From Phycisphaerae bacterium (lineage in GTDB: Bacteria; Planctomycetota; Phycisphaerae; UBA1845), in the NCBI GenBank assembly GCA_013360585.1, contig JABWBH010000031.1, positions 1-56,266 on the forward strand: a stretch of DNA of 56,266 nt, given 5' to 3'. Positions 101 to 20,683 of the stretch are shown here, one piece after another (the first letter of the stretch is position 1; each line of letters starts with the position of its first letter). The notes under the pieces are model-generated. The model did not search any database. It was not told the origin of the DNA and saw only the letters and a list, made by a program, of their open reading frames with translations. Position numbers and translations under genes: made by a program.

Positions 101-257
101 ACCGGCTGGAACGCGTCATCCTGCCCGATCCCGGGGCGGAGCGGTTATATGCATTGAACCGGCGTGGAACGTTCGATAAACTGGGGAAGGGGCCAGATCG
201 GTGTTAGGGGCGTCGATGCTGGTTGGGGGTCATCCGTTCAGTTTGAGGAGGAGCATC

Positions 258-2072
258 ATGCGAAGGAATTGGATGGTGGCGTTCGTCTCTGCGGGCGCCG
301 TCGCGACCGGCGGGGTCGCGCTGGCGCAATCGGACCTGACGGCGGAGGGGGCCGTCGCTCGAGGTGAGTCGCCGGTCGTGATTTCAGACACGAGCACGGT
401 TCAACCGCAGATTCAGGCTTTTACGGACTGGAAGGGCGCGGTCACGCTGGTGAAGGAACACCTTCCGCCGCACTCTCGTCCGGATCTGAAGGTCCGCCGG
501 GAGAAGGGCCAGAACGATCTCGCCGCCGGCGGGCTGTCGGACCAGGTGCGCACGACTCCGGGGGCTTTCTTCCCGGGGGTCCAGCAGACGCCGTGGACGC
601 CGCCGGACCCGACGATCGCGGTCGGACCTTCGCACGTGGTCGAGACGGTGAACATGGCGATCGCGTTCTTCAACAAATCGACGGGCGCGCTGGAGTTCTC
701 GCAGAACCTCGACAACACGGGCAATCCCGGTTTCTTCGAGGACGTTGGCGCGGGCAACTTCACGTTTGATCCGAAGTGCTTCTACGACCACTATGAGAAC
801 CGCTTCGTGGTCGTCGCGCTGGAGGTTTACGGTTCGACGCAGGCGTTCATCGACATCGCGGTGTCGGACGACAGCAATCCGCACGGCACGTGGTACAAGT
901 ACCGGACGGACGCGCGGATTTCCGCCAACGGCTGCCAGTACTGGGTGGACTATCCGGGCTTCGGGTATGACCACCGGGCGTATTACGTGACGGGCAACCT
1001 GTTCCGCCTGAACGGGAACTGCAGCGGTTTCGCCGGGGCGGTGTTCCGCACGTTCAACAAGACGCCGCTGCTGGTGGGCAATCCGGCGACGTACACGGAC
1101 ATTCGTGACGGTTCGGCGTACTCGGTGCAGGCGGCGACGTGTCATGATTCGCCGGTGGCGCCGTTTTTCGCCCAGGACTGGAGCACGACGCAGATCCGTC
1201 TGCACGCGATCCGCGACCCACTGGGGACGCCGTCGCTGGTCAGCGCCAACGTGACGGTCCCGAGCTACTCGTATCCGACGGGCGGCGCGCCGAACTCGGG
1301 CGGCAGCACGATCGACGTGCTGGACGGGCGCATCATTAACGTGGCGTACCGGGGCGGGCGGCTTTATGCGGGCCACGGCGTCCGCCTCAACAGCAAGAAC
1401 CAGGCGCGCTGGTACCAGGTCGCCACGAATACCTGGCCGACGAGCGGTTCGCCGACCCTGACGCAGTCTGGCAACGTGGACGGCGGAAGCGGCGTGCATA
1501 CATGGTTCCCCGCGCTGGCGGAGAACAAGTGCGGCGACGTCGGGATGGTGATGGCGATGAGCAGCAGCTCGACGCGGGCCAGCGTCCAGGTCACCGGTCG
1601 TCAGTCGAGCGACGCGCCGGGCACGATGGGGGCGCTGACGCAGGTGGCGCTGAGCACGAGCGGTTACAACGGCGGGCGCTGGGGCGACTACTTCGACACG
1701 AAGGTGGACCCGGTGGACGACACGACGTTCTGGTCGGTCGGCGAGTACGCGATCGGCGGCGGAACGTGGGCGACGTGGATCGCCAGCTTCCAGGTCAGCG
1801 ACTGCGGCGGCGGAGGCGGGAACATCTGCGACGACATCAAGAAGTTCAAGGGCGCGTGCAAGAGCAGCGGCAAGATCGTCGGAAAGCTCGTCTTCACCGA
1901 CACCTCGCATGACGGCCTGCCCGTGACGATGTCGATCGACGGCACGCCTTACAACACGACCGTCAGCGGACGCAGCGCGAAGATCGCGATCTGCTGCTTC
2001 AGCGGAACGCACACGGTCTCGCTGGATGTGCCGAGCGGATGCCGCGGACCGGAGACGGTCACCTGTCCGTAA
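258..2072 (+). CDS. secreted protein of unknown function, planctomycete type
   Basis: A 604-residue protein with an N-terminal signal peptide: basic start MRRNW, a hydrophobic stretch to about residue 22, then ALAQ, a likely signal peptidase I site. The start at 258 is chosen because GAGGAGG lies just upstream; an earlier in-frame ATG at 201 has no such site. The body (about 100-510) is rich in Gly, Asp, Tyr and Trp and looks beta-rich. The last 75 residues form a separate small domain with five or six cysteines, reached through a Gly-rich linker near residue 515. I recognise no catalytic motif. Its role is probably extracellular or at the cell surface. Followed by a strong terminator-like hairpin, so it is probably transcribed alone. 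Confidence 0.85.
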   Translation: MRRNWMVAFVSAGAVATGGVALAQSDLTAEGAVARGESPVVISDTSTVQPQIQAFTDWKGAVTLVKEHLPPHSRPDLKVRREKGQNDLAAGGLSDQVRTTPGAFFPGVQQTPWTPPDPTIAVGPSHVVETVNMAIAFFNKSTGALEFSQNLDNTGNPGFFEDVGAGNFTFDPKCFYDHYENRFVVVALEVYGSTQAFIDIAVSDDSNPHGTWYKYRTDARISANGCQYWVDYPGFGYDHRAYYVTGNLFRLNGNCSGFAGAVFRTFNKTPLLVGNPATYTDIRDGSAYSVQAATCHDSPVAPFFAQDWSTTQIRLHAIRDPLGTPSLVSANVTVPSYSYPTGGAPNSGGSTIDVLDGRIINVAYRGGRLYAGHGVRLNSKNQARWYQVATNTWPTSGSPTLTQSGNVDGGSGVHTWFPALAENKCGDVGMVMAMSSSSTRASVQVTGRQSSDAPGTMGALTQVALSTSGYNGGRWGDYFDTKVDPVDDTTFWSVGEYAIGGGTWATWIASFQVSDCGGGGGNICDDIKKFKGACKSSGKIVGKLVFTDTSHDGLPVTMSIDGTPYNTTVSGRSAKIAICCFSGTHTVSLDVPSGCRGPETVTCP

Positions 2073-2107
2073 CGGGCGGTTCAGGGCGAATTGATCCAGG
2101 TGGGTTC

Positions 2108-2148
2108 GCAGGCCGCGCTTCAGGCATGAGGCGCGGCCTGCTTCGTTT
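2108..2148 (+). terminator. Rho-independent terminator
   Basis: A perfect 11-bp stem, GCAGGCCGCGC paired with GCGCGGCCTGC, closes a 12-nt loop and is followed by TTCGTTTT. It lies 36 bp after the stop of the secreted-protein gene. It could also serve the opposing gene that ends at 2191, although the T-run is on the plus strand. Confidence 0.7.
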
Positions 2149-2190
2149 TCGGCGCGTGTCGGGTTGAGGATCGTTCCGCGTTCCGCGGCG

Positions 2191-2790
2191 TCACCGGCGT
2201 CTGCGGCGTTCGTACTCCTCCCACGCCTCGCGCCCCAGGCGCGATCGGTCCAGCGGCGGCAGGTCGCGCGAAAGCAGCACGCAACGCAATGCGAAAATCG
2301 ACGGCAGCGTCATCGCCAAACCGAATATGACCAGCCCGACGCCCGCGAGGGTCTGCCCCGAGATTTCCAGCCCCAGCCGAAACCCGCAATACAACCACGT
2401 CAGGCTCACCGCCTCGGACACGACGACCGCCGTGACGGCCCCCCGCCCCAGATCCGCCGACAGCGCCAACCCGACCGCCTGCATCGCCAAACCGCCGATG
2501 AACGCCGCAAGCAGGGACGCCGCCTTCAAGGTGTAAGGCAGCCGTTCCTGCGAAAGGTGCTCCCGAACCGACGGTGCAGGGGTCTCGGGGGGATCCAGCA
2601 GCCGCCCCCCTACCAGACCCACCGCGCCAGAAACGAGCATCAGCACAAGCCCCAACACGCTGAAGAGCCGTCCGGTTCCGCGGATGAAGGCGCGAGCTTC
2701 TTCTCCGGAGGACGACGGCGGCGGCTGGTCGAGATACGACGCAGCGGAACGAGCTTGTGCTTCGGAGGTTGATTTGCGGTCGAGAGTCAT
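2191..2790 (-). CDS. four-helix integral membrane protein, unknown function
   Basis: A 199-residue protein with a polar N-terminus containing a Pro/Ser run (about 22-28). Four hydrophobic segments follow, near residues 42-63, 88-110, 117-140 and 145-167, and the tail is highly basic and acidic, ending in an Arg run. No conserved family motif is evident. The first ATG is used; no clear ribosome-binding site precedes it, so the start is uncertain. It is transcribed in the same direction as the HAD gene upstream (118 bp away) and may share its transcript. Confidence 0.65.
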   Translation of the reverse strand: MTLDRKSTSEAQARSAASYLDQPPPSSSGEEARAFIRGTGRLFSVLGLVLMLVSGAVGLVGGRLLDPPETPAPSVREHLSQERLPYTLKAASLLAAFIGGLAMQAVGLALSADLGRGAVTAVVVSEAVSLTWLYCGFRLGLEISGQTLAGVGLVIFGLAMTLPSIFALRCVLLSRDLPPLDRSRLGREAWEEYERRRRR

Positions 2791-2908
2791 GGCGCGCGTC
2801 GATTTCGTCGGCAGATTTCGTTCTGATATCCCGGCGTGAACACGGAGGGACGCGGCGCTTGAAGACGTCCGCCCCGGCGTTCAAACGTTTCCCCAGCGAC
2901 CGGGCATG

Positions 2909-3601
2909 TTACCGGCTCGGGCGATGATCTTCGACCGCCGCTTTCGCACGCAGCGACATCAACCGTCCGGACGCAAGCTCGGTCAGTCTGTCCACCACCA
3001 GGTCCGCATGTCCCAGCTTCTCCCGAGCGTGCTGGGAGGTCAGACCCACGGCGGCGCACCCGGCGGCGAGCGCTGCGTCGATCCCCGCGGGCGCATCCTC
3101 GATGACGACGCACTGACCGGGCGGCAGCCCCAGCCGCTCCGCCGCCAGGAGAAAAACGTCCGGCGCCGGCTTGCCGCGCGTCACGTCTTTTGACGTCACG
3201 ACGGCAGAGAAGTGCGCCGCGACGCCCAGTTCCTCCAGCGCGAGCGCGACGTTCTCCGGCGGCGTCGAGGATCCGATCGCCATCGCCAGCCCGGCGGCAC
3301 GACAATCGCGGATCAACGCCTCAGCGCCGGGCATCGCAATCGAGCGGATCCGACCGCGAATCAGATCGCGGTAGCACGCCTCTTTCTCCTCGCCCAGCCG
3401 CGCAACTTCGGTCTCGTCCACCTCGCGCCCCCAGAGGATCGGGAGGATCGCGCGATTCTGCCGGCCGAACGTGGCGGCGAACTGCTCATCGGTGATGGTT
3501 CGCCCGTGCCGCTCCGCCAGCACACGCCAACTCCGCAGATGCGCCTCAGCGGAATCGATCAGCACTCCGTCCAGGTCAAAGATCACCCCCCGCATCAACA
3601 T
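2909..3601 (-). CDS. HAD-superfamily phosphatase/phosphomutase, beta-PGM-like
   Basis: A 230-residue haloacid dehalogenase-type hydrolase. Motif I is FDLDGVL with the nucleophilic Asp near residue 9, motif II is the Ser/Thr in IGSST, motif III is the Lys in RGKPAPD, and motif IV is VIEDAPAG. The helical C1 cap between motifs I and II and the KPAPDVFLLAAERLG segment place it near beta-phosphoglucomutase and phosphoglycolate phosphatase-like enzymes. It probably acts on a small phosphorylated sugar or glycolate in the cytoplasm; the substrate cannot be read from the sequence. Translation may begin at 3601 or at the ATG two codons later (3595), which matches the usual MRGVIFDLDG start of the family. 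Confidence 0.9.
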   Translation of the reverse strand: MLMRGVIFDLDGVLIDSAEAHLRSWRVLAERHGRTITDEQFAATFGRQNRAILPILWGREVDETEVARLGEEKEACYRDLIRGRIRSIAMPGAEALIRDCRAAGLAMAIGSSTPPENVALALEELGVAAHFSAVVTSKDVTRGKPAPDVFLLAAERLGLPPGQCVVIEDAPAGIDAALAAGCAAVGLTSQHAREKLGHADLVVDRLTELASGRLMSLRAKAAVEDHRPSR

Positions 3602-3876
3602 GCCCGAATATTACTCGGGAGCCGCCGCCGCATCCTCAAGCCCCTCAAGGCGGAACGACCCGGAGTCCGTTGGAGACACAGGAAGCGCCTTTGCAATGCC
3701 TCATTGACAGGGTGGTAGAAGAACACCCCCTTACTTCGACCTTCGCACACGATGCTGCTGTTTGACCGCGTGAATCAGTGTGTTCAGGAGTTTTCGGCGG
3801 CTGCGGCGGGACGTTCGACGGACTCGGCGACGAAGTCACCGTGACCTCCGGGAACTGCCCTTCGTGCGCAAGTTAG

Positions 3877-3974
3877 CCGCCCGTTGAAAAAGGGGTGCGC
3901 CTCCCTCCGGAAGGCGAATTTCATCGGGAAAAACCGGCATTACGAAGACCGATCCCGGGGGTTTCAACGGGCTG
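3877..3974 (-). repeat. ~100 bp interspersed element, copy B (inverted orientation)
   Basis: Read on the minus strand this begins CAGCCCGTTGAA and carries the same core, GGGATCGGTCTTCGTAATG, as the other copies. It ends CCCCTTTTCAACGGGCGG. It lies 33 bp beyond the stop of the 3-hydroxyanthranilate dioxygenase gene. The rest of the gene-free stretch between 3602 and 4007 holds nothing I can identify. Confidence 0.8.
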
Positions 3975-4007
3975 TCAGCCCTCAGGCGCCTCGGATCGCG
4001 GAACGTC

Positions 4008-4547
4008 TCAGCACGACGGCAGCGTCGACACCGGACCCGGCTTGAGCACCTTCGTCCCGCACTTCCGGCATGTGCGCCGGGCGTCGTCCTTCCAGAACGC
4101 CTCCATCGTGTCGCGGAAATGCTCGACGATGTCCTTGCACGCGAACGTGATGTCGCACACCAGCTCGTTGCACTTGCCGCAGTAGAAGACCAGGTGCTCC
4201 ATCTCGTGCGGCGGGCGCACGCGCTCCACGACGATGCCGATCGTGTCCGGTGGCCGCTGCGGCGAATGTGGCACGTTGGGCGGGATGAAGAAGGTGTCCC
4301 CCTCGCGCACCGCGTGATTCACGATCCGCCCGTTCTCGCGCGTCTGCACGACGATGTCGCCCTTGACCTGGTAGAACCACTCCTCCGACTCGGTGATGTG
4401 AAAGTCGTTCCGCGCGTTCGGACCGCCCACCACCATCACGAAAAAGTCCTGACCCCGGTACAGGTACTGGTTGCCCACCGGCGGCTTCAGAAGATGTCGA
4501 TGCTCTTCGATCCAGGCCTTGAGGTTCAGCGGTTTTGCCACGGTCAT
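4008..4547 (-). CDS. nbaC: 3-hydroxyanthranilate 3,4-dioxygenase
   Basis: A 179-residue single-domain cupin that opens the ring of 3-hydroxyanthranilate with O2, the last step of the kynurenine route towards quinolinate/NAD or 2-aminomuconate. Iron ligands are visible as H50 (NDFH), E56 (EEWF) and H94 (VPHSP), with the substrate arginine R46 just before. The C-terminus carries the rubredoxin-like second metal site of bacterial enzymes: C123-x2-C126 and C160-x2-C163. The start at 4547 is preferred because GGGAGA lies at proper spacing; upstream in-frame ATGs have none. No other kynurenine-pathway gene is nearby, so the substrate source is not shown by context. The symbol nbaC is by analogy with Pseudomonas. 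Confidence 0.92.
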   Translation of the reverse strand: MTVAKPLNLKAWIEEHRHLLKPPVGNQYLYRGQDFFVMVVGGPNARNDFHITESEEWFYQVKGDIVVQTRENGRIVNHAVREGDTFFIPPNVPHSPQRPPDTIGIVVERVRPPHEMEHLVFYCGKCNELVCDITFACKDIVEHFRDTMEAFWKDDARRTCRKCGTKVLKPGPVSTLPSC

Positions 4548-5000
4548 GCGCATTCTCCCGGCAGGCCCCGCGACGGCGACGCCCGAGGTCCGCACCCTGT
4601 CGCGGACCCGGGAAGGCGATTCCGCAGGTCCGCACGTTGTCGCGGGGACATCCGCCGCCGGATGCCCGCGAACCCCGCGGAACCGAACCCTCTCGCAACC
4701 CCGTTGCGGTTCCGCCGCAACGGTGAGTCTACCCCCTCGCGGATCGCACGGTCAATGCCGGACAGCGGTTGAAACGCCCGGCGGTCCCGCTCGGACCGCC
4801 GCGCGCGGCCGCCCCGTGCTTCGCCACTTTATGCCTGCCTTCGGTAGCGCATCATCGAACGTCTCAAGCACGCGCGGAAGGCGCAACCTAACTCGGATGT
4901 TCGTCAGACGGACCGCGGACCTCCGGTCCGTCGGGTTGCCCTGACCGAAGATATGAAACCGGCTCAGCCCTGCGACGCGTGCCGACCCTGGATTGGATAA
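4548..5000. other. intergenic region with a 20-bp direct repeat and a hairpin
   Basis: No gene is seen. Two 20-bp copies of AGGTCCGCACNNTGTCGCGG lie at 4586-4605 and 4626-4645, spaced 40 bp apart, upstream of the dioxygenase gene, where they could be operator half-sites (inference). A 9-bp inverted repeat, GACGGACCG/CGGTCCGTC, spans 4907-4932 with an 8-nt loop. It could be a terminator stem without a T-run. The ~100 bp element follows at 5001. Confidence 0.4.
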
Positions 5001-5100
5001 CAGCCCGTTGAAGAACCCGGGATCGGTCTTTGTGATGCCGGTTTTTCTCGGATGACATTGGCCTCCCGGAGGGGAGGCGCACGCCTTTTTCAACGGGCTG
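5001..5100 (+). repeat. ~100 bp interspersed element, copy C (best preserved)
   Basis: Exactly 100 bp. It begins CAGCCCGTTGAAGAA and ends TTTTTCAACGGGCTG, giving inverted ends that match at 14 of 15 positions. The inside matches copy A almost base for base across GGGATCGGTCTTTGTGATG and the CCGGAGGGG...GGCGCAC part. It contains no open reading frame for a transposase, so if mobile it would be moved in trans. Flanking target duplication is not clear (left GATAA, right ATAGG). Confidence 0.85.
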
Positions 5101-5190
5101 ATAGGGAAAAACGCGGGTCCGAAGTATCATCGACAGGGCGCGGGTACGATGCGCCCCGGCGCGATCAGCACGAAAGCAATGCGCCATGAC

Positions 5191-5310
5191 GTGATGAGCG
5201 CGGCTGAACACAGTCGGAAGCGGGTGAGCAAAGTCCGTGGCGAATGAGGGCGGATGAGCACGTTTGAGAACGGTCGAAGGCGCTTGAGCACGGTAGGAGG
5301 CGGATGAGCA
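5191..5310 (+). repeat. imperfect 30-bp tandem repeat overlapping a start codon
   Basis: The decamer CGNNTGAGCA recurs at 5221, 5251, 5281 and 5301, with a related GTGATGAGCG at 5191. The spacing is 30, 30, 30 and then 20 bp. The best pair, CGGATGAGCACGTTTGA at 5251 and CGGATGAGCACGCTTGA at 5301, differ at one base. The last unit contains the start codon (5304) of the next gene, so the array looks like repeated copying of that gene's translation-initiation region. Confidence 0.6.
5254..5307 (+). CDS. possible 17-codon leader minigene
   Basis: An ATG inside the tandem repeat opens a 17-codon frame (starting MSTFENGRRR) whose TGA overlaps the ATG at 5304 as ATGA. The overlap would allow translational coupling to the downstream gene. 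It begins with the same codons as that gene because both starts sit in repeat units. It may simply be a by-product of the duplication; no ribosome-binding site of good quality precedes it. Confidence 0.25.
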   Translation: MSTFENGRRRLSTVGGG

Positions 5311-5900
5311 CGCTTGAACAATTCATCCACGAAGTCGATTTCTGCGGGCAAGTCGCGTCCGCGGCGAACATGCTGTTTCGCGACCTTGCCGCGGGCGATC
5401 CGGCCGCCTTCCCGTTCGGCGAAGCCCGTGTCGAGGGCTTCGGTACGGGCGCGGTCCGGCGGAAGCGAAAAGACCTGCGAATCTTCGAACCCGCCGCGTC
5501 GGGCGGGCGGCTGGCGCTGTGCGGCGAAGTGAAGCTGCCCGGCACGCCCGAAGGCCGCTCTGCGTTCGATGATCGGCTCTATCAGGACGCGGCGCAGAAG
5601 GCCGACAACGCCGGCGTCCGGTTTTTCTTTACCTGGAACGTCAACGAATTCGTCCTGTGGGACCGAAGCCAGTGGGAGAAGCCGCCGCTTGAACGCCGTG
5701 TGCGCGCCTGGAAGCTCGGGCTGACGCTGGCGAGTCCCGAAGACGTAGCACGCCCCGAGAATCTGGACTTCATCCGCACGCGCTTCCTGCCCGACCTGTT
5801 GCGCGACCTGATTGACATCATAGACGAGTGCCGGTTGAGAGGTCGTAACAAGTGCCGTAGGATTCGTCCGTGCATGCTGACGAATCTTATCTTGATCTGA
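5304..5900 (+). pseudogene. N-terminal fragment of a large Eco57I/N6-methylase-type protein
   Basis: The first ~185 residues look like the N-terminal nuclease-like domain of large (about 1000 residues) restriction-methylase proteins. A GEVKLPG strand follows a conserved Asp (RKRKDLRI), then QDAAQKAD and FFFTWNVNEFVLWD. After RDLIDIIDE (about residue 184) the reading frame continues only 15 more residues of unrelated, basic sequence. The methylase core (NPPY) and recognition domains expected next are absent. The start at 5304 has AGGAGG 5 bp upstream. Its end overlaps the start of the endonuclease gene. Family assignment is from memory of such N-termini. It could instead be a short stand-alone subunit. 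Confidence 0.6.
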
Positions 5901-6664
5901 TTCGCAACGCTCTGCGCGTTTGCTTAAACTACAAGCCCGCGTTCGGTTACGGCAGCGGCAACCGAATCACTCTGGAACGTTTTCAACAGATTTATCGCGA
6001 AGACGAGTTCTACTCCTGGTTCGGGCTTGACTCGCCGCTCGTCTACGCCGCGCACAAGGCGGCCGGCGGCATGACCTCGGTTTACCGGCAAATTGGGCTC
6101 GGCTGCCAACTGCTATTCCAGAATATCCTGCAAGATTCGCTGGGACTCTCTCCGGCCGATGCGACATGGTCCTACAAGCTCAAGGCGAAGGGTACGAAAG
6201 GCCGCACGCTGTCACTCGACGGCCGCATTCCGCTCGACAAGATCACGGACGCTCCGGCGCGCCAACGCTGCGCGGCATGGTTGGCGGGGGCGATCGCTTC
6301 CGTGGGACTGAAGGACAGAAGCGCGCAATCGCTGGACGGCTGCGTGTTCGAGGTGCGGCAGGGATACAAAAGCAACGACGCCAAGCGGCAGAACGCAGAC
6401 GTCTCGAACGCTGCGAACGCCTTCGCCCACCGCTATCTGCCGGTGATGCTGCTCTTGTCGGTGCAGATTCCCGTGAATCTCGCCGAGCGTTACGCGCGGG
6501 CGCACTGGCTGATCCTCCGGGGCACGGTCGGCGGCAGTGCGATCGACTCGACGTACGTTTTCTGCCGCGACGTGCTCGGCTACGACCTGGCCGGTTTCTT
6601 CCGCCGCAATTCGGCCGCGATCAAGGCCGAAACGCTGGCCGTCTTCGAGGGGCTACTGAGATGA
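5870..6664 (+). CDS. candidate type II restriction endonuclease
   Basis: A 264-residue protein beginning at a GTG (5870). Its stop overlaps the methyltransferase start by four bases (ATGA), so the two are translationally coupled. The segment CVFEVRQGYKSNDAKRQNAD (about 158-177) has the spacing of a restriction-type active site, with E161 and the basic K167/K172, and resembles the conserved core of known type II enzymes partnered with this class of methyltransferase. Earlier conserved-looking elements are GYGSGNRIT (26-34) and WFGLDSPLVYAAHKAAGG (50-67). A clean PD-(D/E)xK motif is not obvious, so the function rests mainly on context. The recognition site cannot be inferred. Confidence 0.65.
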   Translation: MHADESYLDLIRNALRVCLNYKPAFGYGSGNRITLERFQQIYREDEFYSWFGLDSPLVYAAHKAAGGMTSVYRQIGLGCQLLFQNILQDSLGLSPADATWSYKLKAKGTKGRTLSLDGRIPLDKITDAPARQRCAAWLAGAIASVGLKDRSAQSLDGCVFEVRQGYKSNDAKRQNADVSNAANAFAHRYLPVMLLLSVQIPVNLAERYARAHWLILRGTVGGSAIDSTYVFCRDVLGYDLAGFFRRNSAAIKAETLAVFEGLLR

Positions 6665-7974
6665 ACACGGGATTGTTCGGCCAGCCTCTGACCAACACCA
6701 GCCCCGCGAACGGCCTGGGTCGGCGCGACCACCTCACGTTCCGCGGCAACGTCGCGATCGGGCGACATGGCTGGCTGCGCCTGACGCCCGCATACTCACT
6801 TCATCTTGTCCGCGAACTTCTCAAGCAGAGCGGGCCGGACGAAACTGTCCTCGAACCATTCTCCGGCACGGGCACGACGCCGCTGGCGTGTGCGTCGCTT
6901 GGCATCCGCTGCGATGCCGTGGATATCAACCCGTTTCTCGTCTGGCTTGGCAATCTGAAGCTGACGCGTTTTGACAATGGAACGGCTCGCGCGGTGAAAT
7001 CGGCGGCGGGCCGTATCGCCGAAAAAGCACGCAACCCGCGCACGGCGGCGTGGAAACCGGACCTGCACCAGATCGAAAAGTGGTGGGACGCGCCGACGCT
7101 CCACACCCTGGCGGCCCTGTGCGATGGCATCCGCAAACCACCACGTGAGCGGGCCGCGGGTGTTTCCGATCTGCTATCCGTGGCGTTCTGCCGCGTGATG
7201 ATCCAGAGCGCCAACGTCTCCTTCGGTCACCAGTCGATGTCCTTCAAGAAGAACGGCGAGGGCGGCGGACTTGTCCCGGAAACTCCGGCGCATGCGGCCG
7301 AACGCATCGCCGCAGCGTTCGTGACCGCCGCGAACGAAGTGGCTGACAGCCTGGACGTTGAACCGCCCACGGCCGACTGTCGCGTCGTCCTGGGAGATTC
7401 GCGCGACCTGTCCGCTGCACTTCCAGCCGGGAAGCAGCGTTACACCGCGGTCATCACGTCCCCGCCGTATCCCAACCGCATGAGCTACATCCGCGAGCTT
7501 CGTCCGTACATGTACTGGCTCGGCTATCTGTCCGACGGCCGTGCCGCGGGTGAGCTCGATTGGAAAGCTATCGGCGGTACATGGGGCTGCGCGACAAGCC
7601 TGTTGAACTCATGGAAACCTAGCGGGCCCGGCGAGATACCCTTTCCGGAATTCAACCGGATCATCCGTGAAATCAGCGCCGGCCACATGCTGCTGGGCCG
7701 CTATGTCCATAAGTACTTCGAGGACATCAAAGCGCACATTGTGAGCTTGCGCAAGGTGCTGGCGCCCGGCGCTCGGTGCCATTACATCGTTGGCAACAGC
7801 AAATTCTACGACACCGTGTTGCCGGTCGAGGACATCTACACAGCGCTGTTTGAGGATGCCGGGTTCGTCGATGTGCGAGTCGAGACGATCCGCAAGCGCA
7901 CGAGCAAGAAAGAGTTATACGAGTTCATTGTGCATGCGCGCGCACTTAGCCGCGATTGTCGTGTGAACGGATGA
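6661..7974 (+). CDS. DNA methyltransferase (amino-methylating, TSPPY type)
   Basis: A 437-residue SAM-dependent DNA methyltransferase. The SAM-binding motif I, EPFSGTGTT, lies at about 65-73, and the catalytic motif IV, TSPPY, at 266-270, followed by RMSYIRELRPYMYWLG. The TSPPY form is typical of cytosine-N4 enzymes but also of some adenine-N6 enzymes. Motif I comes well before motif IV, the reverse of the classical N4 beta order, with about 190 residues between them. It overlaps the endonuclease gene upstream by 4 bp, a standard restriction-modification pairing, and presumably protects the host from that enzyme. A longer in-frame opening upstream (from 6166) overlaps the endonuclease in another frame and is not used. 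Confidence 0.9.
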   Translation: MNTGLFGQPLTNTSPANGLGRRDHLTFRGNVAIGRHGWLRLTPAYSLHLVRELLKQSGPDETVLEPFSGTGTTPLACASLGIRCDAVDINPFLVWLGNLKLTRFDNGTARAVKSAAGRIAEKARNPRTAAWKPDLHQIEKWWDAPTLHTLAALCDGIRKPPRERAAGVSDLLSVAFCRVMIQSANVSFGHQSMSFKKNGEGGGLVPETPAHAAERIAAAFVTAANEVADSLDVEPPTADCRVVLGDSRDLSAALPAGKQRYTAVITSPPYPNRMSYIRELRPYMYWLGYLSDGRAAGELDWKAIGGTWGCATSLLNSWKPSGPGEIPFPEFNRIIREISAGHMLLGRYVHKYFEDIKAHIVSLRKVLAPGARCHYIVGNSKFYDTVLPVEDIYTALFEDAGFVDVRVETIRKRTSKKELYEFIVHARALSRDCRVNG

Positions 7975-7983
7975 AGCTCGCCC

Positions 7984-8700
7984 GTGCCGACTGACGAACT
8001 ACGGCAGGACGATCGGCGGGCGCTGGACGATGCCGTTTTCGAGTTGCTTGGCGTCACGGGCGCAGCGGAGCGGGCGCAGCTCGTGCAACGTTTGCACGAA
8101 GACACGGCCCGGCACTTCCGCGCGATTCGCGTTGTCGAAATCGAGAAGATGGAGCAGCGCTCGCGCACGGCGAGCCGGCGCTTCAGCGTACAGGAATTGG
8201 CCGCCGATGCGTGGGACGCGGCGGAGCTTCCCGACCTGACGCCGCTGGCGGAATGGATCGGCAAGCGCCCGGAATGCACGTCGGCCGTCAACATCCCGGA
8301 AGAGCGCCCGGCGGAGCTTTCGCATTCGCCGATGTTCGACCCGAACACGGTCTATTTCGGCCGCCGGGACGGAGCGAAGGGCCGGGCCGCAAGCGCCGGG
8401 TCGCATATGGACTGCGCGTCGAACGGGCAAGCGAAGCTCATCGTCCGGTTGGCAAACGTCGGGGTTTCCGGCTGGGTCAACGTCCCGGCCGACGAAGCGC
8501 CGTGCCTGTCCGTGCTGGGCGAAGTCGATGCGCGGCTGCTGGCGGCGCGGCGGCGTTTCGACGCACTGGCCGAAAGCCGCACGGGCGATCCGCGCTTACA
8601 GGCGCAGATTGTGGACCAGCTCTTGCGCTGGTTTTTGCATGGCCGCAGTGCCGGTGAACTCGCGGCGACCGGCGGGGACGAAAGGGGCGATGCGGCGTAG
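7984..8700 (+). pseudogene. C-terminal fragment of a large Eco57I/N6-methylase-type protein
   Basis: A 238-residue frame that opens with GTG only 9 bp after the methyltransferase stop. The first 60 residues (DRRALDDAVFELLGV, then RAIRVVEIEKMEQR) are, from family knowledge, like the C-terminal part of large N6-adenine methylase/restriction fusion proteins. No methylase motif is present. Together with the N-terminal fragment at 5304 it brackets the endonuclease-methyltransferase pair on the same strand. The simplest reading is that the middle of a single large gene was replaced by that pair. It might still be expressed as a separate polypeptide, since its frame is open and well spaced. Confidence 0.55.
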
Positions 8701-9112
8701 ACGAGGGCGGCGACCGGCGCGAGGGAGCCGGGGCGGTTGTTCTCCGGCTTCATTGTCGAGCCTCAGGACGGCGCCGTCCGGGTTGTTGGATGCGGGAATG
8801 CGCGTCCGCCGTTATCCTCGGGCCGTTGGGGGCGGGTGGTCGTCGAGGGTCGTGACGTGCGTTTCAAACGCGGTAATCAGCGTTCGATATTCGGGATTCA
8901 CACGCTGTTTCAAAACCCGCGCGAAAGACCCGAAAGGCACGCTTCGTTATCCTTGACCTTGCTTCGTAACGTCAAAGACGGGCGGGCGCGGTTCGGTTTT
9001 GAAATCGCGTCTCAGCGTCCGTAACTGGGATTTGCTATTCTGCCTTCGCCAGGTTGAATTCCCCTTCTGCCTTCAGCATTCTGAACTCGCTATCCCCTAA
9101 AGAGGCGTCACG
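8701..9112. other. gene-free stretch after the restriction island
   Basis: No supported gene. An open frame at 8737-9024 has no recognisable features and an unremarkable start. Near 9036-9100 the phrase TTCTGCCTTC occurs twice 31 bp apart. The region contains more T and A than its neighbours. Confidence 0.4.
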
Positions 9113-9607
9113 ATGGACATCAGGGCGGCATTGAAGAGGCAGTATCGTGGAGCGCTGGCGATGTTGCGGGAGGCGATCGAGCTGTGCCCGGCGCCGCGGT
9201 GGGTGGGCGGCGAGGATGCGGTTCCGTTCTGGCAGGTGGCGTATCACACGCTGTACTTCACGGACCTGTACCTTCAGCAGCGCCTGGAGGACTTCCGTCC
9301 GTGGGAGCTGCACCGGGAACCCTATCATGATCTGCCCTGGCCTGCAGGAAGCGGTTCGGTGATCGCGGATCCGTACACGAAGGCGGAACTGCTGTCGTAT
9401 TGGGCGATCGTCGATGAAAAGGTGCATGCGGCGGTGGACGCGCTGAATCTGGAGGCGCCGGGAAGCGGGTTTCCGTGGCATGCGACGATCCCGAAATTCG
9501 AGCACCAGCTTCACAACCTCCGTCACCTTCAGCATCACGCGGCGCTGCTGTCCGGGCGGTTAAGACGCGCGGACGGGACGGAGGTGCGCTGGGTGCGATC
9601 GGCGTAA
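9113..9607 (+). CDS. DinB-like four-helix protein
   Basis: A 164-residue protein of the DinB/YfiT-like superfamily, a four-helix bundle that usually binds a divalent metal through three histidines. Candidate ligands are the His in QVAYHTLYFTDLYL (near residue 45) and the histidines of LHNLRHLQHHAALL near the C-terminus, a spacing typical of the family. Members act as thiol transferases or in stress responses; the substrate is unknown here. The start ATG at 9113 follows AAAGAGG. It is a single gene converging on the next one. Confidence 0.8.
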   Translation: MDIRAALKRQYRGALAMLREAIELCPAPRWVGGEDAVPFWQVAYHTLYFTDLYLQQRLEDFRPWELHREPYHDLPWPAGSGSVIADPYTKAELLSYWAIVDEKVHAAVDALNLEAPGSGFPWHATIPKFEHQLHNLRHLQHHAALLSGRLRRADGTEVRWVRSA

Positions 9608-9645
9608 GAGGGCATGCGCCGCGGAGCGTCGCGCCGCGGTCGGGG

Positions 9646-10131
9646 TCATCCCTCCTCCGGTCCGTCCGGTTCCGGATCGCCTTCACCCGGCGGGGGTCCG
9701 CCCTGGGGCGGAGGGGCGCCTGGTTGCTGGCGGGCCTGGACGAGGGTGAGCCGCGCCTCGCGCAGCAGCTCCGATCCGCACCAGATCTGGACGCGGTACT
9801 CGCCGGGGGCGGGGAAGCGCAGGCCGTGGAACTGGAGCGTGAGGTTGGCGATGCTGCGCGGGTTCTTGAAGATGACCTTGCCGTTGCCCTCGACCAGGGG
9901 GGGGCGAGCCTCGTTCGAGTCCACGAAGCGGATCGTCAGCGGGGTCTCGCCGTGCCCGTCGGTGAGCGAGCAGAAGACGCAGAGCTGTCCGTGGACGGCG
10001 GGGAAGTTGAAGGCGTGGATCGTGCTGAACATGCCGATCAGCGACTGCTTTCCGGTCATGCGATCGGTGATGATCTGGTCGCAGACGACCAGCGACAGCA
10101 CATCGGGCACGGGATGATGAAGTTTCGACAT
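9646..10131 (-). CDS. DUF6941-like protein
   Basis: A 161-residue protein. The first 125 residues (PDVLSLVVCDQIITD, then KQSLIGMFSTIHA and the GEYRVQIWC segment) resemble the small beta-sandwich family DUF6941, known from many bacteria but of unknown function. The tail from about residue 132 is a low-complexity Pro/Gly/Glu region. The start at 10131 is chosen because GGAGG lies upstream and the family begins at this Met. An upstream in-frame ATG at 10173 would add 14 residues. No partner gene is adjacent. 10132-10377 holds no other gene. Confidence 0.7.
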   Translation of the reverse strand: MSKLHHPVPDVLSLVVCDQIITDRMTGKQSLIGMFSTIHAFNFPAVHGQLCVFCSLTDGHGETPLTIRFVDSNEARPPLVEGNGKVIFKNPRSIANLTLQFHGLRFPAPGEYRVQIWCGSELLREARLTLVQARQQPGAPPPQGGPPPGEGDPEPDGPEEG

Positions 10132-10377
10132 AGACAACGTTGATCCTCCCCTCAAGCACGCCAACGACCGCATCCTATCCGAGCCGCGGCGGCGGCGACA
10201 GCCCGCGCCTCACGCCGCGCCCGTCGCGCGGAGAACCGCCCTCCGGCTGGACAAGCGGTGCGAGGCCGCGACAATCGCAACCCGCCGCCGTCTACGAGCT
10301 GGATCCGACAGATTCTTCGCGCCGGCGGTCTTGCGGAACAGGAATCATCAGGCAGGAATTCACGGGAAACGATGACG

Positions 10378-11541
10378 ATGAAAGTACACGAATATCAGGC
10401 CCGAGAGCTGTTGTCCGAAACCGGCGTCCCTGTTCCGCCCTCTCGCGTCGTCGAGACGGTCGCGCAGGCGATGAACGCCTACCAGGCGATCGGCGGCAAG
10501 GTCGTCGTCAAGGCGCAGGTTTTCGCCGGGGGTCGAGGCAAGGCCGGGTTCGTCAAGCTTTGCGCGAATGAGGCGGAGGTGCGGGCGGCGGCGGAGTTCA
10601 TGCTGAAGAACCGGATGGTGTCGGTGCAGACCGGACCGGAGGGGATTGCGGTGAAGAAGCTGCTGATCGCCTCCGCGGTGGACATCGAGAGCGAGTATTA
10701 TGTGGCGGTCGTGGTGGATCGTGCGAAGCGCTGCCCGGTGGTGATGGTGTCGCGCGAGGGTGGCGTCGAGATCGAGGAGGTGGCGAAGCGGAATCCGCAG
10801 GCGATCGTGAAGGAGTGGCTGGACCCGGTGAAGGGTTTGCAGGACGCACAGGTCGGCAAGCTCGTGACGGCGCTGGGATTCACGGATAAGGCGCAGCCCG
10901 CCGCCGCCGGGAAGGTCATCCGCGGGCTGGTCAAGGTTTTCTACGAATACGACTGCGCCCTGGCCGAGATCAATCCGCTGGTGCGCACCCCGAAAGGCGA
11001 GGTGCTGGCGATCGACGCCAAGATGAACTTCGACGACAACGCGACGTTCCGGCACAAGCGCCTCCAGGAGATGTTCGACCCGACGGAGGAGAACCCGCAT
11101 GAGCTTCGCGCCAAGGAGCACAACCTCTCGTACATTGCACTCGACGGCAACATCGGCTGCCTGGTGAACGGCGCGGGCCTGGCGATGGCGACGATGGACA
11201 TCATCAAGCTGCACGGCGGGATGCCCGCGAACTTCCTCGACGTGGGTGGCAGCGTGACGAGGGACGGCGCCATCGAGGCGTTCCGCATCATCCTCTCCGA
11301 CGCGAAGGTGAAGGGCGTTCTGGTCAACATCTTCGGCGGCATCGCCAAGTGCGACACGATCGCCGAGGCGCTGATCGCCGCGGCCAAGGAAGTCGGATTC
11401 CAAGTCCCGGTCGTCGTGCGCCTGGAAGGCACGAACGTCGACCGCGCCCGCGAAATCCTCCGCGAAGCGGCGATCCCGCAGCTCATCCCGGCGACGGACC
11501 TGACGGACGCGGCGAAGAAGGTGTGTGCGAAGGTGGCGTAA
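10378..11541 (+). CDS. sucC: succinyl-CoA synthetase, beta subunit
   Basis: A 387-residue ATP-grasp subunit that, with the alpha subunit, interconverts succinyl-CoA and succinate with substrate-level phosphorylation in the TCA cycle. The N-terminus MKVHEYQARELL, the glycine-rich FAGGRGKAGFVK segment near residue 50 and the C-terminal GGIAKCDTIAEALI and RLEGTN segments match SucC along the full length (E. coli 388 residues). The start could be 10372 (MTMKV) or 10378; the latter matches the family. The alpha subunit gene sucD, normally directly downstream, is absent here; the next 300 bp hold only a broken gene fragment. Confidence 0.95.
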   Translation: MKVHEYQARELLSETGVPVPPSRVVETVAQAMNAYQAIGGKVVVKAQVFAGGRGKAGFVKLCANEAEVRAAAEFMLKNRMVSVQTGPEGIAVKKLLIASAVDIESEYYVAVVVDRAKRCPVVMVSREGGVEIEEVAKRNPQAIVKEWLDPVKGLQDAQVGKLVTALGFTDKAQPAAAGKVIRGLVKVFYEYDCALAEINPLVRTPKGEVLAIDAKMNFDDNATFRHKRLQEMFDPTEENPHELRAKEHNLSYIALDGNIGCLVNGAGLAMATMDIIKLHGGMPANFLDVGGSVTRDGAIEAFRIILSDAKVKGVLVNIFGGIAKCDTIAEALIAAAKEVGFQVPVVVRLEGTNVDRAREILREAAIPQLIPATDLTDAAKKVCAKVA

Positions 11542-11595
11542 GCGGGGTCCGCGTCCGGATCACGTCTTCGAGCCGCGAATTCCGAAGGCGCAGAC

Positions 11596-11691
11596 GTGTT
11601 ACGCAATTTCTCGCGGATCGGTTTCAAACCGCTGCGCCAGGGGGACGTTGAGTTTCCGCGTCTGAGGGTTCTGGTCGGGCCGATGTCCTGA
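11596..11691 (+). pseudogene. vestige of an AAA/SMC-like ATPase N-terminus
   Basis: Beginning with GTG at 11596, a 31-codon frame reads FKPLRQGDVEFPRL and then RVLVGP, ending in a stop. This is the usual opening of OLD/RecF-like AAA ATPases, where the next residues would complete the P-loop (GPNxSGKSN). Here it breaks exactly at GP. Nothing of the remaining protein is visible in the 150 bp that follow. It probably marks a deleted gene; such ATPases often belong to defence loci, but that is inference. The rest of 11542-11844 holds nothing else I can identify. Confidence 0.45.
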
Positions 11692-11844
11692 ATGCGCCTA
11701 CGACCCACCTGCCGTGGAAACACGACCGGCTTCCGGAGAACACTTCCGGTTTCCTGAAAATGCGCGGGAATAAGGAGGTCGGCGGGCCGGTTCCCCTCGT
11801 GGCACTCTTGTCAATCCGGTTTTCTCGCTTTATGAAGATCCAGC

Positions 11845-13110
11845 ATGTCTGAAACCTACGACGCCATCATCATCGGCGGTGGACCGGCGGGCGCGACGTG
11901 CGCCACGGTGCTTGCCGATCACGGACGCCGCGCTCTGGTCATCGAGCGGGCCAACTACCCGCGGTTTCACATCGGCGAGTCGCTGATGCCGGAGACGTAC
12001 TGGGTCTTCAAGCGCATCGGCATGCTGGACAAGATGAAGCAATCCCGCTTCATAAAGAAGTACAGCGTGAAGTTCGCCACGCCCTCCGGAAAGGAATCCG
12101 CGCCGTTCTACTTTGACGAGCGCAACCCGCACGAGTGCTCGCAGACCTGGCAGGTGCTGCGCAGCGAGTTCGATAAGATGATGCTCGACAACGCCGTCGA
12201 GCACGGGGCGGAAGTCTGGCAGCCGGCGACGGTGCTCGATGTCCTGCTCGAGCCGACGGAGGGCGGCAGGCTGCCGCGGGCGAAGGGCGTCATCGTCGAG
12301 CGCGACGGCGAGCAGTACCCGGTTTACTCGAAAGTCGTGGTGGATGCGACAGGCACGAGCGCGATGCTCTCGCGGCGATTCAATGTGCGCGTGCCGGATC
12401 CCGAGCTGCACAAGGCCGCCGTCTTCGCGCACTACAAAGGCGCGATCCGCGACAAGGGCGAGCGAGACGAAGGGGCGATTCTGGTTCTCGCGATCGAGAA
12501 TCAGAAGGGCTGGTTCTGGTTCATCCCCCTTCCTGATGACATCATGTCGATCGGCATTGTCGCGGACATCGACTACCTCATCAAAGGTCGCGGCACGCCG
12601 GAGCAGATTCTCGAAGAGGAGATTCAGAAATGCCCGGCGCTGATTCCGCGCCTCGCGCCCGCGAAGCGCGTCTCGCGCGTCCACGTGCTCAACGATTTTT
12701 CCTACAACTCGAAGGTCTGCGCCGGCGACGGCTGGGTGCTCGTCGGCGACGCCTTCACCTTTCTCGACCCGATGTACTCGTCGGGCGTGCTGCTGGCGCT
12801 GAAGAGCGGAGAACTCGCGGGCGACGCGATCCACGAAGCACTCAAGTCCGGCGACACTTCGGGCAAAAGCCTGGGCCGCTGGGGCGACGATTTTTATGAG
12901 GGCGTGCAGGCCGTGCGCAAGATGGTCTACGCCTTTTACTCGCCGGGTTTCTCCTTCGGCAAGTTCATCCGCGTGCATCCGGACAAGAAGAACCACGTCA
13001 CCGAAGTGCTCATCGGCGATGTCTTCCGTCCCGAAGTGCATGAACTCTTTAAACCGATGGGCGAGATGTGCCGGCTGCCGGAGTCGCTGAAACTGGAACC
13101 GGCGTCCTGA
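11845..13110 (+). CDS. FAD-dependent oxidoreductase, flavin-halogenase-like
   Basis: A 421-residue flavoprotein. The N-terminal GGGPAGA (11-17) is the Rossmann FAD motif, YPRFHIGESL (39-48) is typical of the halogenase/geranylgeranyl-reductase group, and VGDAFTFLDP is the second FAD motif. Residues 223-228 read WFWFIP, matching the WxWxIP motif of flavin-dependent halogenases, and K71/K72 lie where the catalytic lysine of phenol-type halogenases is found. Many planctomycete proteins of this shape are uncharacterised, and reductases of the same fold can share part of the motif. It stands alone, with no flavin reductase or biosynthetic partner beside it. Its 3' end faces the kinase gene. Confidence 0.8.
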   Translation: MSETYDAIIIGGGPAGATCATVLADHGRRALVIERANYPRFHIGESLMPETYWVFKRIGMLDKMKQSRFIKKYSVKFATPSGKESAPFYFDERNPHECSQTWQVLRSEFDKMMLDNAVEHGAEVWQPATVLDVLLEPTEGGRLPRAKGVIVERDGEQYPVYSKVVVDATGTSAMLSRRFNVRVPDPELHKAAVFAHYKGAIRDKGERDEGAILVLAIENQKGWFWFIPLPDDIMSIGIVADIDYLIKGRGTPEQILEEEIQKCPALIPRLAPAKRVSRVHVLNDFSYNSKVCAGDGWVLVGDAFTFLDPMYSSGVLLALKSGELAGDAIHEALKSGDTSGKSLGRWGDDFYEGVQAVRKMVYAFYSPGFSFGKFIRVHPDKKNHVTEVLIGDVFRPEVHELFKPMGEMCRLPESLKLEPAS

Positions 13111-13174
13111 TCGGCGGACAAACCCGCACTGTCTGGGGACATCGGCGGTGATCCAGGCCGCCTTGCCGGGTCGC

Positions 13175-15916
13175 TCAGGATCGATCGTTGGCCGCGGATT
13201 CCCCCTCAGGGGCGTGGGTCGCGGCCTCCTTCAGGCCGTCAAGCGCCTCGCGCGTTCGAGCATGATCCCGTCCGTAACCTGCGGACAGGAGGTCTGCGGC
13301 GCGCTGGTAGGCGTCGTGCGCCTCTCTCCAGCGTTGCAGCTTCGCCAGACAATGCGCCCAAGAGAGCACGGCTTCCCCCAGCAACGCCGGTTCCGCGTCG
13401 TGCGCCTCAAGGCGTGTGACCGCGCCGGCCAGCAGGGCGTCCGCGTGCGCCGGATCCTGCCGGTCCAGAAGAATCCGCCCGAGGAGCAGGTCCGCCAGCG
13501 GTCTGAGCATGCCGGCGTCAGGCTCGGTCAGCCTGCGGCGGGCGCGTTCGACCTCGGTCTGAGCTTCGTCGAGGCGTCCGAGTTCTCTTAAGGTGGAGGC
13601 GAGGGAAACCCGGCTTCTGGCGAGGTCGAGATGATCCGGGGGGAGCGCCCGCTCGCGCAGGGCGAGGCAGTCGGCGTGGCGCTGGCGGGCTTCCTCGAGG
13701 CGGGAATGCTGGCGAAGGAACTCGGCGTAATTGAAGAGAAAGAGAGGGTTGTCCGCGCCGCGGGTGTCCCGCCAGATGCGGATCGCCTCGAGGTAGCTTT
13801 CCTCGGCCCGCGCCGTCTCGCCTGCGCCGTCGAGCAGGTCCGCGAGGTTGATGAGGATGGTGGCGACGTACTGATGGCGCGCGCCGAGCGTTCGTCGGGC
13901 GTGATCGAGGGCGGTCTCGTACATTCGCCGCGCATCCGCCGTGCGTCCGCTCAGCTCCAGCAACACGGCGAGATTATTGAGGCTTTCCTGAAGGTCCGGG
14001 TGGACGGAGTTGAGCGTCCTGCGACGGATATCGTACGCCTCCTGCACGAAGGTCAGTGCTTCATCGAGCCTCCCCGAGGTGTAGGCGATCAGCCCGAGGG
14101 CGTTGAGCGACTCGGCGACATCCCGGTGGGAGCGTCCGAAAAGCGACTCCCGCGACGTCAGCACGTCGCGATGCAGGGCTTCCGCTTCGCTCATTCGCCC
14201 GAGGCCTTCGAGCGCGACGGCAAGGCGAAACCGCACCGACGCGCGTTCCCCCGGATCGCTGGAAGGGTCGCGGTCCAGCAAGGCGAGCGCCTCCCGCTGA
14301 TGTCGCTCCGCGGCGGCGTAGTCCGCGCGTTCGTAGGCGAGCCTTCCCTGAAGACTGAGGAGCCGCGCGCGATCGGCTGCGGTCGCTTCGCCGGAGCGTT
14401 CGGCCAGCGTGAGCGCCTGCCGCAGCAGGAGATCGGCCTGGTCGAGTTCGTCAAGGTGCAGCAGCGTCGTCCCGAGGGTCTCCAGCAGGCGGGCGCGGAT
14501 CAGCGGGTCGTCCCCCAACTCCTCGCGGAGTTGGGCGGCGCCGAGCGACAGCGCCTCGCGCAGCGAGACCTCCGCGCCGAGCGGATCGTCTTCGCCGCGG
14601 AAGGCGTCGGCGGAGCGAAAAAGGTCGTCAAGGAAAGCGACGACGCGCTGAGAGCGGTCCGCGTTCCGGTCCGCGCGGCGACGCTGGTCGTCGGCGCGCG
14701 CGTACAACATCCACGCGACGGCGCTGAAGCCCGTCAGCGCCAGCATGCCCACTCCGGCGGCAATCAGCGCCGCGCGGTAGCGTCGGGCGGTTTTTCTCAG
14801 GACGTACCAGGCGCTGGCGCGGCGCGCCTCGATCGGCTCGCCGGCGAGGTAGCGGGCCACGTCCAGGCGCAGGGCCTCGGCGGAGTGATACCGGCGTTCG
14901 CGATCCCGGGCGATCGCCGTCATGACGATCGTGTCGAGGTCTTCGTCCAGATTCGGCGCCGGACCGCCGTCGGGCGTCGCCGGGAGACTCGGCGGATCCG
15001 GATCGCCGCCGGTGATGGCGTCGATGACGTCTTTGACGGAGCCGCGCTCGGAAAACGGGCGTCTGCCGGCGAGCATCTCGTAAAGAATCACGCCGAGACT
15101 GTAAACGTCGGCCCGGATGTCAACGAGGTCCGGGTCACCGTGGAACTGCTCGGGCGCGGCGTAGTGCAGCGTTCCGAGAAACCCGCCGGCTTCGGTGAGC
15201 GGACCCTCCCCGCCGGGCCGAGCGGCGGGCGCCTTGGCAAGCCCGAAGTCCAGCACGTGCGGCTCGCCCGCGCCGTCGACGAGGATGTTTCCGGGTTTCA
15301 GATCGCGGTGAATGACGCCGCGCTGGTGGGCGTAGTTGACGGCGGCGCAGACCTTGCAGAAGAGGTCGAGCTTCCGCCGCAGCGCCTCGCGCGCGTCCGG
15401 GCGCGCGGCGCCGGAAACGGGGGGCGTCCACGCGTCGAGCGGTGCGCCGTGCAGATACTCCATCGCGTAATACAACCGGCCTTCGGGCGTCGAGCCGCTG
15501 TCAAAAAGCGTGATGATGTTCGGGTGGCGAAGGTGAGCGACGAGGTCGATCTCCCGCTCGAAGCGCGCCCGATGCTGGGGTGATGCGAACGCGCCGCCGT
15601 GAAGGACTTTCAAAGCCACGACGCGGTTTGTGCGTTCCTGAAGCGCCTTGTACACGACGCCCTGCCCGCCGGCGCGCAACTCGGCGAGAAGCTTATACCC
15701 CTCGATCGTCGGAAGCGGCGACGGCGCGGCGCGCACGACGCCGGAAGTCGGCGTCAGCAGCGCGGCCAGTTCCGCCAGGTCCGCGTTGTTGCGCCGGATG
15801 CGCGCGACCGCGTCGCGGCAAGCGGGACACGTCCGGACGTGCGCCCAGCCGGGCGAGGCGTTATCCGGTTCGGCAGCGAGCGCCTCCAGGCCTTCAAGAT
15901 TCGGGCAGGCGTTCAT
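13175..15916 (-). CDS. membrane Ser/Thr kinase with zinc-finger head and TPR tail
   Basis: A 913-residue protein. Residues 1-40 carry H26-x3-C30-x2-C33, the pattern of zinc-binding anti-sigma domains. The Hanks-type kinase domain spans about 74-360: ALK with K103, HRDLKPGN with D205, DFG at 223-225 and APEQ near 255. One transmembrane helix lies near 382-405, followed by about 500 residues of TPR-type helical repeats facing the other side of the membrane. The glycine loop has Arg (R81) in place of the first Gly. The start overlaps the sigma-factor stop by four bases (ATGA), so the two are coupled. It probably receives an envelope signal through the TPR part and controls the partner sigma factor. 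Confidence 0.9.
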   Translation of the reverse strand: MNACPNLEGLEALAAEPDNASPGWAHVRTCPACRDAVARIRRNNADLAELAALLTPTSGVVRAAPSPLPTIEGYKLLAELRAGGQGVVYKALQERTNRVVALKVLHGGAFASPQHRARFEREIDLVAHLRHPNIITLFDSGSTPEGRLYYAMEYLHGAPLDAWTPPVSGAARPDAREALRRKLDLFCKVCAAVNYAHQRGVIHRDLKPGNILVDGAGEPHVLDFGLAKAPAARPGGEGPLTEAGGFLGTLHYAAPEQFHGDPDLVDIRADVYSLGVILYEMLAGRRPFSERGSVKDVIDAITGGDPDPPSLPATPDGGPAPNLDEDLDTIVMTAIARDRERRYHSAEALRLDVARYLAGEPIEARRASAWYVLRKTARRYRAALIAAGVGMLALTGFSAVAWMLYARADDQRRRADRNADRSQRVVAFLDDLFRSADAFRGEDDPLGAEVSLREALSLGAAQLREELGDDPLIRARLLETLGTTLLHLDELDQADLLLRQALTLAERSGEATAADRARLLSLQGRLAYERADYAAAERHQREALALLDRDPSSDPGERASVRFRLAVALEGLGRMSEAEALHRDVLTSRESLFGRSHRDVAESLNALGLIAYTSGRLDEALTFVQEAYDIRRRTLNSVHPDLQESLNNLAVLLELSGRTADARRMYETALDHARRTLGARHQYVATILINLADLLDGAGETARAEESYLEAIRIWRDTRGADNPLFLFNYAEFLRQHSRLEEARQRHADCLALRERALPPDHLDLARSRVSLASTLRELGRLDEAQTEVERARRRLTEPDAGMLRPLADLLLGRILLDRQDPAHADALLAGAVTRLEAHDAEPALLGEAVLSWAHCLAKLQRWREAHDAYQRAADLLSAGYGRDHARTREALDGLKEAATHAPEGESAANDRS

Positions 15917-16530: not shown

Positions 16531-16712
16531 GACACAGAATCCTACCCCGCCGGCAGATCGGTATCCAAGCCGGTCCTCAGGCTTTCCGGATCGCCGACCC
16601 TGGCGGGTCGCTCTTTCTCCCGCCCCGTCTGATGGGATAACACGCGGAACGTATCTTCGTCTTACGAACCGGCATCAGAGCGATCAGCAGGCAACCAGCG
16701 GAGTCGTCGATC

Positions 16713-20683
<3,971 letters not shown>

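Follow-up and report, generated by a model that had tools for sequence, protein, structure and literature searches.

The DNA examined here, a 56,266-nucleotide stretch from contig JABWBH010000031.1 of a Phycisphaerae bacterium (GenBank assembly GCA_013360585.1; hereafter the window), carries a type II restriction-modification (R-M) pair, a restriction endonuclease (REase, R) and a methyltransferase (MTase, M), lying between two pieces that resemble the ends of a type IIG R-M enzyme. An initial annotation had described these open reading frames (ORFs) as an endonuclease–methyltransferase pair flanked, on the same strand, by N- and C-terminal fragments of one large Eco57I/N6-methylase protein; the four ORFs were found where it had placed them, with the fragments on either side of the pair.

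Gene content of the locus

The features of the locus, including a stretch that lacks a counterpart in G009, a genome of the same genus, are the following.

5304-5900, + strand: N piece, 198 amino acids (AA), type IIG-like N-terminus with a predicted PD-(D/E)XK nuclease domain
5820-5869, + strand: left junction, a spacer of ~27 nt not assigned to the IIG gene, then the REase leader AACAAGTGCCGTA..
5870-6664, + strand: type II REase of the putatively inserted pair (PADLOC PDLC03512, 1e-71)
6661-7974, + strand: MTase of the same pair (PADLOC type II MTase models, best 3.8e-25)
7976-8700, + strand: C piece (ORF 7984-8700, 238 AA, GTG start), corresponding to IIG residues ~1029-1265
5173-9611, no strand: stretch without counterpart in G009, made up of the N piece, R, M and the C piece with a dispersed repeat and a DinB-like gene

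All four ORFs lie on one strand and either overlap or stand 9 nt apart. The MTase ORF as called mechanically opens at 6166, the true start being 6661, and the gene overlaps the REase stop codon by ATGA. The GTG start of the C piece lies 9 nt past the MTase stop, in the MTase frame. On the left, the N piece overlaps the REase by 31 nt in the window and ends 3 nt before the REase ATG in G011, another member of the genus; its last ~26 codons are non-IIG sequence. The REase leader is also found upstream of the R-M copy in genome G045. An upstream REase start codon is followed by TAG in the window and by TAT in G011; with this stop two codons on, translation in the window must begin downstream, at the earliest at GTG 5870 in that frame. 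Short copies of GGCGGATGAGCACG.TTGA at 5249-5317 cover the start codon of the N piece, and similar copies are present in G011. No RNA family was found within positions 1-20000 of the window, and a promoter scan returned one weak site, with 0.7 expected by chance.

With REase and MTase side by side as separate genes, the pair has the layout of a type II R-M system. The MTase possesses the motifs PFSGTGTT and then TSPPY, from which we take it to be of the amino-MTase class. The AlphaFold model of the REase (predicted local distance difference test, pLDDT, 62.4) is too poor to name a fold; its Foldseek matches, PspGI, AgeI and Kpn2I among others, are weak and none reaches E<=0.001. Homologs of the REase were found in 13 of the 114 genomes of the order, the window genome included, and at all 13 further R loci an M homolog adjoins the R gene. 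Within the window genome R has a single match at 1e-5, and its copy here is the only one. Two R copies, L046 with an in-frame stop and L048 with a frameshift, were left out of the alignment of R copies (A2). One viral contig carries the R-M pair.

Single-chain relatives and the nuclease domain

Neither flanking piece has an above-cut-off match in Pfam or NCBIfam, and the relation between them therefore had to be shown through relatives. PDB sequence searches with the N piece, the C piece and R gave nothing useful, and PADLOC gave a weak match of the N piece to IIG (5e-4) and a weak one of the C piece to JetC (0.004), judged spurious. Genome contigs scanned with the C piece as query gave nine loci (L009-L017). 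At six of these (L010, L011, L012, L015, L016 and L017) both pieces were matched by tblastn within one open frame of 1,230-1,986 codons, with identities of 57-78% for N and 50-78% for C. L013 and L014, which begin at a contig end inside the gene, were for that reason not counted as intact, and L009 is without an N match. The 1,265 AA protein of L017 contains N6_Mtase and Eco57I domains at residues 340-579, both of which are also carried by L015; REase_MTase_IIG (PDLC03606) is the best PADLOC model for L017, the E-values for L017 and L015 being 1.4e-33 and 2.8e-36. The intact relatives thus described combine a nuclease domain, an N6-MTase and an extended C part within a single chain, and their N domain can be aligned with the N piece of the window.

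On the scale of L017, IIG homology in the window stops near 5819 (residue ~163) and restarts at 7976 (residue ~1029), where the stop codon of the MTase lies. Residues ~164-1028, including the N6_Mtase/Eco57I core at 340-579, have no counterpart in the window, in agreement with the claim of the initial annotation that the core methylase motifs are missing. The window also matches IIG residues 995-1025, but this stretch overlaps the tail of the MTase and the similarity was put down to chance. As judged from these alignments, the N piece and the C piece represent opposite ends of a single type IIG-like protein, one family read in one frame in the intact relatives, and not fragments of different families. 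The remnant in the window, its MTase core gone, is on the same grounds predicted to be unable to act as a IIG enzyme.

Among 397 genomes drawn from the larger class, with at most two candidate places scored per genome and partial matches representing a lower bound, 22 had a match at E<=1e-25, and in 11 of the 22 the gene is near full-length. The window genome contains no second copy of either piece, its other matches having E-values of 0.075 or worse. At one locus, L129 (G383:C255:6847-11554), another C-terminal piece, diverged and with one stop, lies 437 bp beyond a near full-length IIG gene; it corresponds to residues 1084-1262 and gives the impression that an older allele was replaced.

The N piece was modelled with AlphaFold (pLDDT 83.7). 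The best fold match of the model is the type IIG enzyme BpuSI (PDB accession number 3s1s), residues 18-177, with Z 12.6 over 148 residues and a root mean square deviation of 3.4; HsdR subunits come next at Z ~8 (8.3), and the best Foldseek match is the same BpuSI chain (E 1.6e-3). An alignment of 10 N-domain sequences has 24 invariant columns, among them E44, D57, E75 and K77, which form the active-site pattern E44, D57, E75-x-K77. Fold and D..E-x-K site together are those of a PD-(D/E)XK nuclease, and the N piece is, on model and alignment, predicted to be the nuclease domain of the old IIG enzyme with its active-site residues in place. It resembles BpuSI in this domain, whereas the window lacks the MTase core that BpuSI possesses.

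Comparison within the genus

In G011 the N piece, R and M occur in the same order, with identities of 95% (over 168 codons), 90% and 88%, beside the same HAO-like neighbor gene (97%). Window positions 5300-7978 align with G011 as DNA at 84% identity, and the left junction, with its non-IIG spacer and REase leader, is common to the two; this sharing of spacer and leader across the junction points to one event. The initial annotation had proposed that one restriction system was swapped into another, and the common left junction, together with a related genome without the block, bears this out. That genome, G009, lacks 5173-9611 and has ~133 unmatched bases at the orthologous site, and is nearer to the window than G011 is in the three flanking genes compared in both. 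Since G011 has the block at the same neighbor gene, the event appears to predate the split of the two species. The right side of the locus differs: IIG sequence in G011 starts again at residue 887, the TGA stop of the MTase lies within IIG DNA, and the C part is reduced to residues 885-993, carries a stop and ends near 993. The C piece of the window is in its DNA 91% identical to the L009 contig (G051/G066, another family) and 76% identical to G010 of its own genus, which makes the right junction of the window look like a later recombination.

A type II R-M cassette has in all likelihood replaced the middle of a single-chain type IIG-like gene, with the nuclease end left in front of it and the C part behind. 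The compact cassette, ~2.1 kb, would begin ~23 nt upstream of the REase start and end with the MTase stop. In the common ancestor it would have taken the place of IIG residues ~164-886, a range that follows from G011, where IIG sequence is present again from residue 887 and provides the stop codon of the MTase. Subsequently the C part of G011 would have been truncated at its end and have acquired a stop; residues ~887-1028 would have disappeared from the window lineage, perhaps when it recombined with a foreign IIG allele resembling the one in G066; and the island would have been lost from G009. Replacement of the middle would have abolished IIG methylation and probably site recognition in one step; with both lost together, no unprotected sites would be left to a working rival nuclease. 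Lacking a methylase core, the old IIG gene would be dead as an R-M system, and the pair would now operate as an ordinary type II system in which the MTase marks its own site and the REase cuts unmarked DNA. The N piece would be placed for translation ahead of the REase, maybe with translational coupling.

Insertion of R-M units of the type associated with Nobusato reportedly proceeds with a long target duplication. By contrast, no target duplication flanks the pair here: the N piece ends at residue ~163 and the C part starts at 887 (G011) or 1029 (window), without overlap. No direct repeat of >=14 nt was found at the R-M boundaries, and no repeat marks either of them.

Selection on the pieces was assessed from the ratio of nonsynonymous to synonymous substitution rates (dN/dS). 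Between the window and G011 this is 0.094 for N (95% interval 0.035-0.172), 0.118 for R and 0.086 for M. The 50 changes in N comprise 37 synonymous and 13 nonsynonymous ones, the neutral mean being 36 nonsynonymous, and none of 500 runs gave a number as low. With L017 used to polarise the changes, 16 synonymous and 2 nonsynonymous ones fall on the G011 branch, and 11 and 7 on that of the window. From these counts the N piece is estimated to have been under purifying selection since the event; it is the protein sequence and not merely an open frame that appears constrained, which suggests a useful product. Most likely it has been kept by selection as a leader gene whose predicted nuclease product would still have a use. 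For the C piece, dN/dS between the window and G066 is 0.169, with 35 of 78 changes nonsynonymous where neutrality gives 56 on average and not one of 500 runs fell so low; this comparison includes time spent in the longer gene. By branch there are 15 synonymous and 16 nonsynonymous changes for the window and 24 and 14 for G066, so that C, once separated from the rest of the gene, has been under weak constraint at most. The initial annotation had left the fragments as possible scars or reused parts; reuse fits the N piece, and the C piece, much less clearly constrained, looks more like a scar, mostly a relic.

The synonymous divergence (dS) between the window and G011 is 0.37 for N and 0.48 for R, inside the range of four neighbor genes (0.18, 0.26, 0.30 and 0.52).

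Several observations weigh against this history. The right junctions do not coincide, lying at residue 1029 in the window and 887 in G011, so that the C piece of the window may have arrived separately; the right flank of G011 is also unlike that of the window. The dS of the MTase (6661-7971 compared with L043) is 0.855, above those of N, R and the neighbors, which suggests later recombination within the block. Constraint on N is weaker on the window branch than on that of G011, and such constraint could be mimicked if N had been refreshed from an intact copy. An intact IIG gene, which the initial annotation had proposed to look for at the same site in relatives, was found neither there nor elsewhere in the four genus members searched, and the state before insertion has consequently been reconstructed. 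Finally, isolated IIG fragments, broken or frame-shifted and scar-like, are present in G105 (two places), G059 and G072. Of ten ORFs scanned near these fragments, the eight next to the ones in G105 and G059 had no R-M match and include an RtcR-like regulator, which indicates that the gene also decays without an invader; the C fragment of G072 lies directly behind an Mrr-type ORF, with a Cas3 gene nearby.

These fragments lend themselves to the reverse order of events, in which a deletion first broke the IIG gene and the R-M pair then inserted into what was already a dead remnant, leaving N and C as functionless scars. A C piece that is degenerate in G011 and weakly constrained on the window branch would fit, as would G010, also of the genus, where IIG residue 12 is joined in frame to 888 by an internal deletion. 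This fusion (L044 12871-14037), the first 12 IIG codons with residues 888 onward, is open for ~388 codons and lies near nuo-like genes. Its right breakpoint, however, agrees with the R-M boundary of G011 to ~3 nt, which can be read as derivation of G010 from a nested allele or as shared microhomology. The reverse order is rather unlikely, since the pair lies within ~27 nt of IIG sequence at its left end and within 1 nt at its right, the MTase stop of G011 is inside IIG DNA, and N has been strongly constrained after the event.

That the draft assembly joined unrelated pieces is very improbable. The window is a contig of a genome in 84 contigs, its right junction is seen there alone, and the C piece is closest to a genome of another family. 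Against an assembly error, the N-R-M order recurs in the independent genome G011, and to the right of C the contig continues with repeats and genes of the genus (89-96% DNA identity over 9612-12310; 83% for the DinB-like gene). The least credible explanation, that N and C serve as separate subunits of an ordinary R-M system with four genes, would suit the close spacing of four ORFs on one strand and founders on the one-frame relatives (six of nine loci; 11 of the 22 matching genomes in the class survey), on the reduced C part of G011 with its stop, and on the 12 of 14 checked R loci (two of them short contig ends) without the IIG N and C pieces.

Replacement of the IIG middle by the R-M cassette thus being preferred, the surroundings of the locus may be added. 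A repeat of ~100 bp resembling miniature inverted-repeat transposable elements (MITEs) lies at 2-102, 3872-3978, 4998-5103 and 46479-46580, with ends CAGCCCGTTGAA..TTCAACGGGCTG, and has dozens of matches in G009 and G011. Neither of these genomes has the 4998-5103 copy, for which an ATA target duplication is possible, at the orthologous position. A second dispersed repeat at 8900-9011, with inverted ends at 8902-8917 and 8995-9010, occurs at several places in the same two genomes. The DinB-like gene (9113-9607), named by eye, falls within the stretch absent from G009; its homolog in G011 lies elsewhere, between copies of the MITE-like repeat.

Parallel nestings and precedents

In two genomes from other families of the order, G103 and G070, the same R-M family lies inside a different methylase gene, of the Mod+Mrr type. 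The product of that gene is a Mod-type methylase of 547 residues with an Mrr domain at its C-terminus; one flank is a piece of it that ends near residue 126, the other a piece that starts near residue 421, and both are matched by seven long ORFs in other genomes of the order. Between loci L077 and L078 the alignment covers 2.3 kb and takes in the scars; the 13.0 and 12.5 kb compared hold nothing else that matches at 1e-5. Plasmids searched by tblastn with R and with two Mod fragments yielded no match. G073 has a second copy of the IIG N end (residues 1-219), after which come a XamI-type REase (PF09572, 2.5e-99) and an MTase; this R-M system is unrelated, and no IIG C end is present on its 6.6-kb contig.

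Altogether, methylase gene ends were found on both sides at four of the 14 R loci (the window and 13 others), namely in the window, G011, G103 and G070, representing two events. At the other ten, two of which are short contig ends (L038 and L039), none were found with the IIG, Mod and XamI probes (and R and M); ten loci also had their flanks read by eye over 420 nt. We tentatively suggest, as a possibility more doubtful than not, that rival methyltransferase genes are recurrent landing sites for this R-M family that the invader can retain something useful of the gene it displaces, and that the IIG nuclease has here become a selected third gene of the operon, an orphan nuclease translated ahead of the REase, one restriction system thereby incorporating parts of another.

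To the initial annotation such nesting was not a standard layout, but R-M systems inserted into or replacing R-M genes are in print. According to PMC2630997, an R-M complex is inserted in another R-M complex in Campylobacter upsaliensis RM3195 and in Helicobacter pylori (Nobusato et al. 2000, cited in PMC2630997). The locus in the window is like these in having one R-M pair inside another R-M system; unlike those insertions, which are said to be into a system of separate R and M genes, it has the middle of a single-chain gene exchanged while both ends stay as ORFs. In Campylobacter cuniculorum, according to PMC4615327, an R-M system of the PabI family took over the position of a type II REase gene, whose partner M gene was disrupted. 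There too an R-M system replaces part of another; the R gene was the part replaced in that account, whereas here it would be the methylase core of a fused enzyme, in a layout found in two species and with the nuclease end constrained. The literature searched contained no naming of this locus, nor was there found in it the exchange of the middle of a fused enzyme, a locus of this kind common to two species and missing from a third, a leftover nuclease under constraint, or independent parallels. Minimal mobile elements, known from Neisseria, are alternative R-M cassettes exchanged between conserved flanks. Their flanks are housekeeping genes; here the pair is flanked by the two ends left of a rival R-M gene.

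R-M systems are regarded as selfish elements in competition with one another, and loss of one usually leads to self-killing of the cell (post-segregational killing). Loss of the loser's methylase and site recognition in one step could avoid this, and fused IIG genes make such a step possible. With a shared junction, a block-free site and parallels in one bacterial order, the process can be traced. If a retained nuclease is indeed under selection, it would offer a testable route to new multi-part defence systems.

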